64,000 nt of DNA from Mariprofundus sp. NF (GTDB lineage Bacteria; Pseudomonadota; Zetaproteobacteria; Mariprofundales; Mariprofundaceae). The DNA lies in assembly GCF_013387455.1 (NCBI RefSeq), contig NZ_VWNC01000004.1, positions 62,001 through 126,000 on the forward strand, given 5' to 3'. Shown piece after piece: positions 34,633 through 39,014 of the stretch. A program made the position numbers and the translations under genes. Below the pieces are notes generated by a model, which saw nothing but the letters and a program-made list of their open reading frames with translations, did not search any database and had not been told where the DNA came from. Every line of letters begins with the position of its first letter. The stretch's first letter is position 1.

Positions 34633-35733
34633 TTAGATCCTCATCGGCATAATAACATAGCGCGATCCTTCATCATCTTCACCACGTACCAGTACCGGAG
34701 AGAGTTCATCTTTAAGCTCAATGCGTACTGCTGAAGAGCGAATAGCACTCAGTGTATCCCTGAGATAACGACCATTAAAACCGATAGCGACCTCCTGACC
34801 ATTGTAGTCCGTGGCGATATGTTCTTCGGCCTCTTCCTGCTCGGTATTATGCGCAGATATATCAATACCCTTCTCTTTGAAGGTGAGTCGAACATCGTGA
34901 GTAAACTCATTGGCTACAATCATACTTCGGCGCAGTACCTGATCAAATTCACCCTTGGCCACAATCGCCTGAGCCGGGTTATTGACTGGAATGACATCCT
35001 GATAAACCGGGAAACGGGCATCGATCAATTTAGAGGTAAGAATATTGGAGTCAGCTACCAGACGAATCTGACGCTCACCCAAAAAGAGTTCAATCTGACC
35101 CTGACACTCATCACAGAGCTTTCTGATCTCCAGCACTGCCTTGCGTGGCACAATGCATTTCACAGCCTCTGTCTCCTGCTGAAGACGAACTTCAGAGAGA
35201 GCCAGCCTGTGACCGTCAGTGGTAACCAGTCTGAGCATATGCTGATCATCCACCTCAAACAGACTACCGGTCAGATATTTACGGGTCTCATCTGTAGACA
35301 TGGCAAAGGCAGTGGCTGCAACCATATCGGAAAGTGTTGAGCCGGATAGTGTGATCGAGCTGCCACCCTGCTCCTCTGTTAACGCCGGATATTCACCAGC
35401 TGCGAGTGAGGCAAGACGGAACCGGGAACGGCCACTGCGAATCGATACAAATGTTTCACCACTCTCAAGGGTGACATCCTGATCAGCATCGAGCTCTTTG
35501 ATGATATCAAACAGTTTTCTGGCTGATACAGTGATCGAACCCTCTTTTGTTACTGTAGCAGGTGCCTGAGAACGAATACCAACCTCAAGATCAGTGGCAG
35601 TAACATGCAACGTGTCGTTTTCTGCCTGCAGTAAAATATTGGCAAGAATCGGGATGGTGTGGCGTTTTTCTACAATGCTCTGACAACGCTGCACTGCCTG
35701 CAACAAAGATGCTCTGGACAATGTGATGTTCAT
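34633..35733 (-). CDS. dnaN: DNA polymerase III beta subunit (sliding clamp)
   Basis: 366-aa clamp that tethers DNA polymerase III to DNA as a ring-shaped dimer. It opens MNITLSRASLLQAVQRCQ and has the three-domain length; LATDGHRLAL-like TTDGHRLALSEVRL lies near residue 170, and it ends in the conserved SPVLVRGEDDEGSRYVIMPMRI. An AGG-rich ribosome site precedes the ATG. The upstream side faces the 1.06-kb origin region instead of dnaA directly. Confidence 0.98.
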   Translation of the reverse strand: MNITLSRASLLQAVQRCQSIVEKRHTIPILANILLQAENDTLHVTATDLEVGIRSQAPATVTKEGSITVSARKLFDIIKELDADQDVTLESGETFVSIRSGRSRFRLASLAAGEYPALTEEQGGSSITLSGSTLSDMVAATAFAMSTDETRKYLTGSLFEVDDQHMLRLVTTDGHRLALSEVRLQQETEAVKCIVPRKAVLEIRKLCDECQGQIELFLGERQIRLVADSNILTSKLIDARFPVYQDVIPVNNPAQAIVAKGEFDQVLRRSMIVANEFTHDVRLTFKEKGIDISAHNTEQEEAEEHIATDYNGQEVAIGFNGRYLRDTLSAIRSSAVRIELKDELSPVLVRGEDDEGSRYVIMPMRI

Positions 35734-35756
35734 ATCTACTACCTAATCCCCTTTAT

Positions 35757-35990
35757 ATTTATAAAAACTCATAGTCATCATAGGTGCTGTGAGTATTGTG
35801 AATAAACCCCATTTATCCATTGTTCACATGGCTTTTTAGCATCTCCGGTCTGTGTGTGAATCCAGGAGAGAGAGTGAACAGGATGTGGATAATTAATCAT
35901 GCTCAGTCGCATCAGTTCGGTCAATCACTTTATGCTCAAACTATCCACAACATATGCGCGGACAGACTCACACCTTATTAGCCAAAAGAG
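35757..35990. repeat. Origin module, copy 1
   Basis: About 230 bp that recur, without gaps and at a constant offset of 620 bp, in copy 2. Shared blocks include CATAGTCATCATAGG, GCTGTGAGTATTGTGA, GTGAACAGGATGTGGATAA, TATGCTCAA and CTATCCACA. All three DnaA-box positions are matched between copies. It sits next to the dnaN start. Confidence 0.88.
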
Positions 35991-36376
35991 AAGTGTTGTT
36001 CCTTTCTTCTACCGGATGGGGGTACAACAATTGAAGCTGGATAAACCCTCAATGGCTGTTTCCAGACAGAGAGTAGATCAAACAAAGAACCAATATGCTA
36101 AAAGTCGTTAAGATGATTACTTCATTCTACTCTATTTATTCGTCACCAACATGAATACTTAATGTGGAATACCTTTCGATCATGTGAATGAACCTTAGCT
36201 AAGTTTTGAATATCTACTTGAGTTGAGAACAGTTATTGAGATTCTATTCACTGTTTTCCTATAACTGAAAAACAGATGATTGCATGATCTGAATAATGAA
36301 ATTAAGAGATGCTGTTACAAAGATATGTTGGAATATTCTGTAAGGTTGTTGCCTTTATTACTTGTTACCCTTTTAT

Positions 36377-36610
36377 TTTAATAAAGATTCATAGTCATCA
36401 TAGGGGCTGTGAGTATTGTGAGTAAGGGTGGAATAGCCATTCATGCACTGGCTTTAAGTGCTTTTTGAACTGTGTGTGAATGATGGAGAGCTTGTGAACA
36501 GGATGTGGATAAACTCCGATTGGTAACAGGATGGTGGTCAGATATCGGGTTATGCTCAATCTATCCACAGGCTGTGCGGGGATAGGCTAACACCTTCTTA
36601 GAGAGGCGAA
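36377..36610. repeat. Origin module, copy 2
   Basis: Second copy, offset by exactly 620 bp from copy 1. It keeps the perfect TGTGGATAA box and the CTATCCACA box; the box at 36417 has one change (TGTGAGTAA against TGTGAATAA in copy 1). It is flanked on both sides by AT-rich DNA and lies about 180 bp from the dnaA stop. Confidence 0.88.
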
Positions 36611-36791
36611 CGGTTCAGCTGTAGTGTTAATTTATAATATATAAAGTTATTTAATAACAGTTAGTTACAAGTATTAATAAGGTAGACATGAGTGTTCATG
36701 AGAAATAGAGCCCATATCAAATATTAACCGGTTTTTTGATTGTTATATCGTGATTTAAAAAGCTCTTATGACAGAGCCCGGGTAGAATTAT

Positions 36792-38123
36792 TTACTGTTT
36801 AAGCAGGGACATAATACGACCCATCTCTTCATCAAAATCATCAGACTCTTTACGTTTTGCATTAATTTTACGTACCGCATAGAGAACAGTTGTATGATCT
36901 TTTCCACCAAATCGACTACCAATCTCGGGCAGGGATAGTGTAGTAAGCTCTTTAGTAGCATACATCGCTATCTGGCGTGGGAATGCAATGGTGCGACTGC
37001 GTTTACTTGAAGACATCTCACGTATATTAATATTAAAGTAGGAGGCGACCTTCTTCTGAATATCCTCTACAGAGACAGCACGAACCTCCTCATGCAGGAG
37101 ATCACGCAGTACATGCCGGGCAAATGCGATATCAATGGTGCGACCGGTCAGTGTTGCATGGGCAGTAAGACGGGTCAGTGCACCTTCAAGTTCACGCACA
37201 TTATTTTTAATACGCGATGCCAAGAGGTGGCCAACATCTTTATCAAGATGAACACCTGCCAACTCCGCTTTACTGGATAGAATGGCTAAACGTGTCTCAA
37301 GATCAGGTGGCTGAATATCTGCAACCAGTCCCCAGTTAAAGCGGGAGCGCAGACGCTCCATCAGATTAGTAAGATCGCGCGGGCTACGGTCAGAGGTAAG
37401 AATAATCTGTTTCTTCACCTCGTAAAGGGCATTGAAGGTATGAAAAAACTCCTCCTGCGTACGATCTTTACCGGCAATAAACTGGATATCATCAATAATC
37501 AGTACATCCACCTGACGATACTGATTGCGAAAGGCATCGGTTGAACCATTACGAATCGCCTGGATCAACTCATTGGTGAAACGCTCACCCGTACGGTAGG
37601 CGATGCGGGTGTGATCCTTACTCAACAGCTCATTGGCAACTGCATTGATCAGATGTGTTTTACCAAGGCCTACACCACCATAGAGGTAGAGCGGGTTATA
37701 GATAGCACCGGGTTTATCAGCGACTGCACGGCAAGCTGCATTGCAGAACTCATTACCGGAACCGACGACAAAATTTTCAAAGGTAAAACGCGGGTCGATA
37801 TAACCATCAACATTGGATTGCCTGCTTTCAACGGCCACCTCTTCTTTTTTCACTTCTGCAGCAGCAGCGAGCTTGGCATCCACCTCATAGAGGATATTAA
37901 TATGATCGCCGATCATAATATGGGCCAGTTCAGTAAGACGTTTTCCGTAGCTGGCTTTCAGGCCATCAAGAAAAAAGCGATTGGCAACCTTGATGGTTAA
38001 ATCACCATCATTGTAGTGGGCGGTTAACGGTCGAATCCACGCATCAAAACGGGATGCAGGGATCTCATCCATCAGTGCATCTTTGATACGGTGCCAGTAA
38101 GATTCGTCAAAGGTGGTTGTCAT
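36792..38123 (-). CDS. dnaA: Chromosomal replication initiator protein DnaA
   Basis: 443-aa AAA+ initiator that binds DnaA boxes and opens oriC. Walker A is YGGVGLGKTHLINAVANELL near residue 150, Walker B is VLIIDDIQFIAGKDRTQEEF, and the DNA-binding signature GSRFGGKDHTTVLYAVRKI is near the end. Domain I (residues 1-80) helps oligomer formation and helicase contact. I choose ATG 38123 (MTTTFDESYW); the longer frame begins at a GTG at 38159. Unusually for the simplest layout, the putative origin is downstream of dnaA, between it and dnaN. Confidence 0.97.
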   Translation of the reverse strand: MTTTFDESYWHRIKDALMDEIPASRFDAWIRPLTAHYNDGDLTIKVANRFFLDGLKASYGKRLTELAHIMIGDHINILYEVDAKLAAAAEVKKEEVAVESRQSNVDGYIDPRFTFENFVVGSGNEFCNAACRAVADKPGAIYNPLYLYGGVGLGKTHLINAVANELLSKDHTRIAYRTGERFTNELIQAIRNGSTDAFRNQYRQVDVLIIDDIQFIAGKDRTQEEFFHTFNALYEVKKQIILTSDRSPRDLTNLMERLRSRFNWGLVADIQPPDLETRLAILSSKAELAGVHLDKDVGHLLASRIKNNVRELEGALTRLTAHATLTGRTIDIAFARHVLRDLLHEEVRAVSVEDIQKKVASYFNINIREMSSSKRSRTIAFPRQIAMYATKELTTLSLPEIGSRFGGKDHTTVLYAVRKINAKRKESDDFDEEMGRIMSLLKQ

Positions 38124-38184
38124 TGGCAGAATAGTACATGCTTGCCCAGCTTCATCCACTCTATAGATGAGTCGCGATCATTCC

Positions 38185-38212
38185 TTGACACCATTGCGAT
38201 GCTATTTATCAT
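38185..38212 (+). promoter_or_regulatory. Sigma-70 promoter of rpmH operon
   Basis: TTGACA at 38185-38190, a 16-bp spacer, and TATCAT at 38207-38212, with transcription expected near 38219, about 50 bp before the rpmH ATG. The -35 is a perfect consensus. It should drive rpmH-rnpA-yidD-yidC-mnmE. Confidence 0.8.
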
Positions 38213-38269
38213 GCGCGACCCTTTTTAAGCGACTGCTTATCAAGTTGATAAGGTATCAGGAGATTTACC

Positions 38270-38404
38270 ATGAGCTTTACATATAAGCCAAGCCGTATCC
38301 GCCGCGCACGCCGTCATGGCTTCCGTGCACGCATGGCAACCAAAGCAGGACGTGTGATTATGAATCGTCGCCGCGCTAAAGGTCGTAAGGACCTGACAGT
38401 ATAA
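38270..38404 (+). CDS. rpmH: 50S ribosomal protein L34
   Basis: 44 aa, the standard L34 length, very basic: [18 protein letters not shown], then [10 protein letters not shown] and [12 protein letters not shown]. Found by reading the + strand directly, as it is too short for routine ORF calling. The ATG has AGGAG upstream. Its TAA is followed, in the same frame, by the coding sequence of rnpA with only two codons between the stop and the likely rnpA start. Confidence 0.97.
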
Positions 38405-38410
38405 ATCGGT

Positions 38411-38752
38411 CTGAACCAGCACTTCCCTAAATCAGGGCGTTTACGCTCAAAATCTGATTTCGCCGCCATGCGAAAAGGCAGGCGAATCAGTGTAGGGGGA
38501 GTACGGCTGGTCTATCGTTTTAACGGTTCCGAGCACTCTCGTCTGGGGCTTGCTGTTTCAAGAAAATATGGCAATGCCGTTGCAAGGAATCGTCTGAAAC
38601 GCCAGCTGCGCGATCATTTTCGTTGTGGCAGTTATGATTCACTGGGTATTGATGTTCTGGTGATACCGATTGTGAATGTAGACAGAATGGTGGATCCAGT
38701 ACATGACTTTTCTCAAGCTCTGCTCAAGATTCGTCAGCCGCATCAGGGATAG
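38411..38752 (+). CDS. rnpA: Ribonuclease P protein component, apparent CTG start
   Basis: Protein subunit of RNase P, which matures tRNA 5' ends. The core is GLAVSRKYGNAVARNRLKRQ, the RNA-binding RNR motif. The first ATG (38468) would give only 94 aa and lose the conserved N-terminal block FPKSGRLRSKSDF, which is encoded in frame just upstream. Reading back from it, the frame is open to the rpmH stop at 38402-38404, with no ATG, GTG or TTG; the only plausible start is CTG 38411, giving 113 aa, the usual length. Translation may be coupled to rpmH. Confidence 0.85.
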   Translation: MNQHFPKSGRLRSKSDFAAMRKGRRISVGGVRLVYRFNGSEHSRLGLAVSRKYGNAVARNRLKRQLRDHFRCGSYDSLGIDVLVIPIVNVDRMVDPVHDFSQALLKIRQPHQG

Positions 38753-38762
38753 GTTTTGATCG

Positions 38763-39014
38763 ATGCGTAAACTTTTTCTGTTACCTGTCCGTTTTTATCA
38801 GTTGTTCATTTCGCCTGTTATGCCATCGCATTGCCGGCATTATCCCACCTGTTCATATTACACAATCGAGGCCGTGCAACGCCATGGCGTGTTGCGCGGT
38901 ATTTGGCTTGGTACGAAACGTCTGTTACGTTGCCATCCGTTTTCAAAAGGTGGGTTCGATCCGGTACCGGAAGTTGAGGCAACCAGATCTCTAAAAGTTT
39001 TGAGGGAGAAATAA
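38763..39014 (+). CDS. yidD: Membrane protein insertion efficiency factor YidD
   Basis: 83-aa small protein that helps YidC-dependent membrane insertion. It has the family pattern [20 protein letters not shown], then [16 protein letters not shown] (conserved cysteines) and [16 protein letters not shown]. It likely sits at the inner face of the membrane by an amphipathic N-terminal helix. It is 10 bp after rnpA and 2 bp before yidC. Confidence 0.96.

Follow-up and report, generated by a model that had tools for sequence, protein, structure and literature searches.

Two tandem predicted oriC modules between dnaN and dnaA in Mariprofundus, with recurrent duplication and sequence constraint across the genus

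Bacterial chromosomes are taken to use, and to need, one origin of replication. What, then, does a long repeat of DnaA-box DNA between dnaN and dnaA represent: a single origin with an accessory part, a binding site for surplus DnaA, a decaying duplicate, or a second origin? The locus lies in a 64-kb stretch of a Mariprofundus sp. genome (the whole stretch is hereafter the window; this genome is G000, and the other G-numbers are the genomes compared with it). Its gene order on the minus strand is gyrB-recF-dnaN-gap-dnaA, with dnaN at 34633..35733, dnaA at 36792..38159 and a gap of 1061 bp; the names gyrB and recF, and those of the plus-strand rnpA/yidC/mnmE-like genes beyond dnaA, are provisional. 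Across this gap, 35746-35990 aligns without a single indel to 36366-36610 at an offset of 620, with 160/245 identities (65%), against 62 +/- 6.7 (maximum 87) for shuffled sequence and 98/245 for the next-best match on either strand of the window, and a repeat search returns blocks of 58, 43 and 52 nt, every one spaced 620. This confirms the gapless duplication at an exact 620-bp offset proposed in a first-pass annotation of this DNA, with the copy length corrected from ~230 bp to ~245 bp, ending at the AT-rich DNA by the dnaN start. The same annotation rightly placed a perfect DnaA box in each copy: TTATCCACA occurs at two sites only in the 64 kb, at 35884..35892 in copy 1 and 36504..36512 in copy 2, both on the minus strand.

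That the locus is an origin, with a module duplicated within it, also holds. As in other bacterial oriC regions, clustered DnaA boxes adjoin dnaA and dnaN, low-stability DNA adjoins the boxes (z = -3.6 and -4.0, see below), and the GC skew switches sign at the site: the cumulative curve, drawn over the 64-kb window only, has its minimum at 36150, between the copies, rather than at the distant position that would have spoken against an origin here. What did not stand is the view of the repeat as a box cluster only. In 12 genus genomes and in G033 of a neighbouring genus, the gap between dnaA and dnaN is about 250-340 bp long, mostly ~270 bp, and holds one module each, whose alignment reads, towards dnaN, as three inverted boxes and then direct boxes; next come two adjacent tandem boxes with the consensus TTATCCACA CTATCCACA, five GC-rich bases, DNA resembling TATGATGATGAC and, last, AT-rich DNA and the start of dnaN. 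Because these single-copy relatives carry the same module once in the same gap, the repeat is, on comparative grounds, the entire oriC of this lineage, and more than a cluster of boxes.

Both copies follow this plan. Copy 1 (35746..35983, minus strand), the dnaN-proximal one, is orthologous by genus alignment and profile to the single oriC of the relatives and stands in the same place relative to dnaN in 22/22 genus genomes with the region; the distal, extra copy 2 (36366..36603, minus strand) matches the profile with 125 bits (E 2e-37) and keeps 92% of the genus-conserved columns. The inverted array, on the plus strand, comprises TTATGCTCA at 35930, CTATCCACA at 35941 and AGACTCACA at 35964 in copy 1 (35930..35972), and TTATGCTCA at 36550, CTATCCACA at 36561 and AGGCTAACA at 36584 in copy 2 (36550..36592), its TGTGGAT and GAGTATAA columns being conserved genus-wide. 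On the minus strand follow tandem boxes a and b, TTATTCACA (35797..35805) and ATACTCACA (35788..35796) in copy 1, TTACTCACA (36417..36425) and ATACTCACA (36408..36416) in copy 2, and next to them a GC-rich spacer with a trinucleotide-periodic, DnaA-trio-like element, kept in nearly all of the 35 modules compared (alignment A1): GCACC with TATGATGACTATGAG at 35768..35787, and GCCCC with TATGATGACTATGAA at 36388..36407. The three matching box positions first reported are real, and the match extends to the three inverted boxes, to other box-like sites, to the tandem pair (35788-35805 and 36408-36425) and to the adjacent unwinding element. Other searches of the region returned little: Rfam gave no match in 35400-39000, promoter matches were fewer than in shuffled sequence, and Dam/SeqA-type control was rejected, with GATC absent from both modules.

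Each copy also ends in its own weak DNA. By 40-bp nearest-neighbour energy against the window, the predicted opening DNA of copy 1 (35743..35782, z = -3.6) faces dnaN and that of copy 2 (36354..36393, z = -4.0) faces the inter-copy spacer; both are local stability minima and rank in the lowest 0.1% of the window. The minimum for the window as a whole, the 40-mer at 36628-36667, is at neither opening site: it falls on the far side of the inverted box array, between copy 2 and dnaA. The AT-rich DNA at 36110-36370, seen at first as possible unwinding DNA between two box clusters, does flank the opening site of copy 2, but copy 1 has its own, facing dnaN, and since spacer, periodic element and AT-rich site are all present in each copy, a shared unwinding region is unsupported. 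The spacer between the copies (35991..36365) is 34% GC and fast evolving.

How might such a unit open? In the basal unwinding system (BUS), tandem boxes load DnaA-ATP onto an adjoining trinucleotide element, and the duplex opens (PMC8287927, PMC10721633). Our modules share with the BUS of B. subtilis (box 6/7, GC spacer, DnaA-trios) the co-oriented tandem boxes, a ~5-bp GC-rich spacer, the periodic element and the AT-rich DNA, all in the same order; in a BUS the co-oriented tandem boxes lie within about 16 bp of the trios, and here 5 bp separate box b from the periodic element. DnaA is alike too, E183, N187, I190, I193, R202, K222 and E228 being identical to the B. subtilis residues that capture trio bases or grip the strand, with differences at two such positions, where N196 is G and E223 is D. 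Unlike that system, the modules here occur two or three times per chromosome, and the periodic element departs from B. subtilis trios in that CTA (3'-GAT-5' on the other strand) occupies only the first triplet in most modules and most later triplets are TGA, although the distal copies of G005 and G010 read CTA TGA CTA CTA CTA. Read on the box strand, the element runs C-TAT-GAT-GA(T/C)..., and in 32/35 modules five consecutive triplets have their middle adenine on that strand, whereas the adenine of the published DnaA-trio is on the opposite strand (box strand CTA; PMC8235120). The middle adenines at 35768-35782 and 36388-36402, and in all modules of A1, thus sit opposite to the published trio strand despite the conserved DnaA contact residues. 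The published rule asks for at least three triplets with the middle adenine on the strand opposite the box strand; since only 19/35 modules, and neither window copy (two such triplets each), pass it, we do not file the element as a DnaA-trio, and by position and periodicity it may act in a trio-like way. Deviant trios were anticipated by the authors who described them (PMC8287927).

Is the second module a peculiarity of one strain? We counted modules by profile search in the 22 genus genomes that cover the dnaA-dnaN region: 10 have two or three, and 12 have one, a figure that includes two drafts (G006, G014) with so little sequence upstream of dnaA that an unassembled upstream copy could be missed. 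Two modules lie in the gap in G000, G015, G011, G005, G010 and G012, and three in G001; G002 and G009 have one in the gap and one upstream of dnaA, and G004 one in the gap and two upstream. The extra module is thus upstream of dnaA in 3/10 multi-copy genomes and downstream in 7/10, and the dnaN-proximal copy is present in 22/22. As for the relatives in which the first pass proposed to look for both copies, the sisters G015 and G011 (a single contig of 2,537,610 bp) hold both, and the single-copy sister G007 (likewise a single contig, 2,301,665 bp) holds one full module. All 12 extra copies are full length, co-oriented and within ~3 kb of dnaA/dnaN, and all retain the terminal opening unit, TATGA periodic element included, with weaker tandem boxes in some (G012_734, G001_640, G005_678). 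In the upstream-of-dnaA copies G009_2016, G002_2050, G004_1930 and G004_2938 the tandem boxes are perfect, TTATCCACA-CTATCCACA, and are stronger than those of the dnaN-proximal copies of G002 and G009. Scanned whole with model R1, the genus genomes yielded no full-length module at any other place.

Among 80 loci of distant relatives, comparing the DNA around dnaA with itself turned up 3 weak repeats that contain boxes (E 4e-5 to 8e-9); the best E-values in the ten multi-copy genomes run from 1e-12 to 6e-56. A further duplication, outside the genus, occurs in G063, which belongs to a different genus of the same family: two modules in the same orientation and 349 bp apart stand upstream of its dnaN (L236, 1877-2450), and dnaA is not adjacent. 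In G084, an oriC module stands ahead of dnaN on each of two contigs (L237, L238), and the second of these dnaN genes looks frameshifted; this could be a second copy or mixed strains. Within the genus, the 2019-bp three-module gap of G001 (L178) also has a fragment that, by eye, resembles an IS5-type transposase, along with a 48-nt inverted repeat common to two of its spacers, and in G004 (L184) the end of an ORF that, by eye, is P-type-ATPase-like lies upstream of dnaA in place of the usual rpmH neighbourhood.

Are the extra copies maintained, or simply young? We called alignment columns conserved when at least 90% conserved among single-copy modules, and variable when below 60%. The extra copies match 82-92% of the conserved columns and 21-32% of the variable ones, which is near chance, and the primary copies of the same genomes 88-96% and 23-37%; the impression that selection had kept the boxes while other bases diverged is borne out. 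Between G000 and G015, the distal copy is identical at 221/245 positions (90%) and the proximal at 243/250 (97%), while their surroundings fall in the range of 60-78% (146/188 in the flank on the dnaA side; 172/288 aligned columns in the spacer, whose alignment has many gaps); between G005 and G010 the figures are 212/238 for the distal copy and 233/238 for the proximal. By these comparisons the extra copy is constrained, less than the primary one and more than its surroundings, and the opening unit is within the conserved part. The two copies are not equivalent, since the distal one evolves faster. Nor would the extra copies be kept as a dnaN leader, because the ribosome-binding GG of the single copies is mostly lost from them in the alignment.

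In a tree of DnaA and DnaN, the multi-copy genomes fall into three groups (G011/G000/G015, G001/G004/G009/G002 and G012/G010/G005), and in the module tree the extra copies cluster with the primaries of the clade they come from; those upstream of dnaA in G002, G009 and G004 make up a group of their own beside that clade's primary copies. A single ancestral duplication was rejected by the AU test for all extra copies as one clade (p = 7e-5), as it was for the gap-located ones alone (p-AU 6e-4); duplication therefore recurred. In G011 and G012, within-genome identity over the first 55 columns (50/55 and 45/55) exceeds that between genomes, which suggests gene conversion, and this could distort both the module tree and the AU result. 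As conversion could make old duplicates look young, we offer about four events, and additional copying in G004 and G001, as an estimate only. A tandem duplication of dnaA together with oriC would be expected to leave remnants of dnaA or dnaN, and none are found in the spacers. Origin turnover, in which a new copy replaces the old, is also disfavoured, the dnaN-proximal copy being kept in 22/22 genomes.

What, then, is the second module for? Could it be no more than an error of assembly? The G000 assembly is a draft of 24 contigs, but the same arrangement recurs in G015 and in the single-contig G011, and copies that differ at 35% of their positions cannot be a collapsed or repeated read stack, so that an artefact can be regarded as refuted. 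That same divergence, together with an unconstrained spacer, might instead be read as the mark of a non-functional remnant of a tandem duplication; this we hold to be very improbable, considering that conserved columns are kept at 82-92% against near-chance matching at variable ones, and that copies have persisted across speciation in G000/G015, G005/G010 and G002/G009/G004. A functional extra module could also bind DnaA and so delay initiation, or repress dnaA by feedback, roles that would suit its high box density and its position just upstream of dnaA in three genomes. Yet it is downstream of dnaA in 7/10, the opening unit and its order are kept, and there are no dispersed copies, whereas a site that titrates DnaA could lie away from the origin; titration or feedback is accordingly improbable.

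The strongest alternative is that of a bipartite origin with one firing site, in which the distal module, as an auxiliary, would bind DnaA and help the proximal one to open by looping to it, as oriC1 does for oriC2 in Helicobacter pylori; there, interaction of the nonessential subregion through looping has been reported (PMC8235120). The weaker constraint on the distal copy fits such a role, as does the fact that the dnaN-proximal copy is never lost among 22 genomes, and the upstream-of-dnaA position in G002, G009 and G004 recalls the layout of B. subtilis and H. pylori. Set against this, the opening unit is kept in 12/12 extra copies, and known auxiliary subregions need none. Because mere DnaA binding would not call for it, an opening-competent second origin is favoured over an auxiliary, which we judge unlikely, if a serious contender. 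Our own reading, of two complete tandem oriC modules, a primary origin and a second, opening-competent module under selection, seems to us somewhat probable as judged from sequence. Its parts are firmer than the whole: the completeness of the extra copies, their conservation, the selection on them and their recurrence in the genus are what the comparisons above show.

How would a chromosome with two such modules work? We posit that the duplication arose in the ancestor of this Mariprofundus sp. and its two closest relatives, and that each module, with one array of inverted boxes, one of direct boxes and an opening unit at its end, could be assembled upon by DnaA-ATP and would open the AT-rich DNA adjoining it. 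The dnaN-proximal module would be the primary origin, and the distal one would add initiation capacity or robustness, with DnaA loaded nearby, firing in its own right or as a back-up. As the modules are 620 bp apart, the same two replichores would result whichever fires, so that a second origin would cost little, which would explain why extra copies are repeatedly tolerated beside dnaA and absent elsewhere. A more tentative and rather doubtful proposal is that every module, two or three as the case may be, fires in vivo, which would make the genus a natural multi-oriC case with a copy number that changes repeatedly.

By the evidence of alignment, the duplication is real and functionally constrained: whole origins have been repeatedly duplicated in one genus and selectively kept, and sister species with a single copy offer natural controls. 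Whether a bacterium would keep a second oriC, and for what reason, can now be tested directly in culturable strains. The 35-module alignment also defines the origin of a lineage, with its unusual trio-like element, whose oriC has only incidental mentions in the literature we searched; likewise, no report of recurrent duplication of an oriC module alone was found in the open-licence literature, itself weak evidence of absence. Several known systems come close. The bipartite origins of B. subtilis and H. pylori also have two DnaA-binding regions near dnaA, and in G002, G009 and G004 box clusters are, as there, separated by dnaA, on both sides of it; in the window both are on the same side. The subregions of those origins differ in content, with the opening element in one (PMC8235120), whereas ours are whole modules, paralogous to one another, and by sequence each has an opening unit. 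An opinion paper of 2015 by Gao states that evidence was lacking for any chromosome using two functional origins, and lists putative double origins, in Acidaminococcus fermentans and others, and the duplication in M. bovis BCG (PMC4403523). Pseudomonas aeruginosa, in the account cited in PMC4403523, has two autonomously replicating origins, only one of them essential under laboratory conditions, and is alike, by description, in carrying two origin-like elements on one chromosome. The cases of Gao are similar in having more than one oriC-like region per chromosome, some of them beside dnaA, but they involve a second dnaA, large duplicated segments, islands or sites far apart, and are confined to one or few strains; in Mariprofundus it is oriC alone that is duplicated, recurrently, and with the selection upon it measured.
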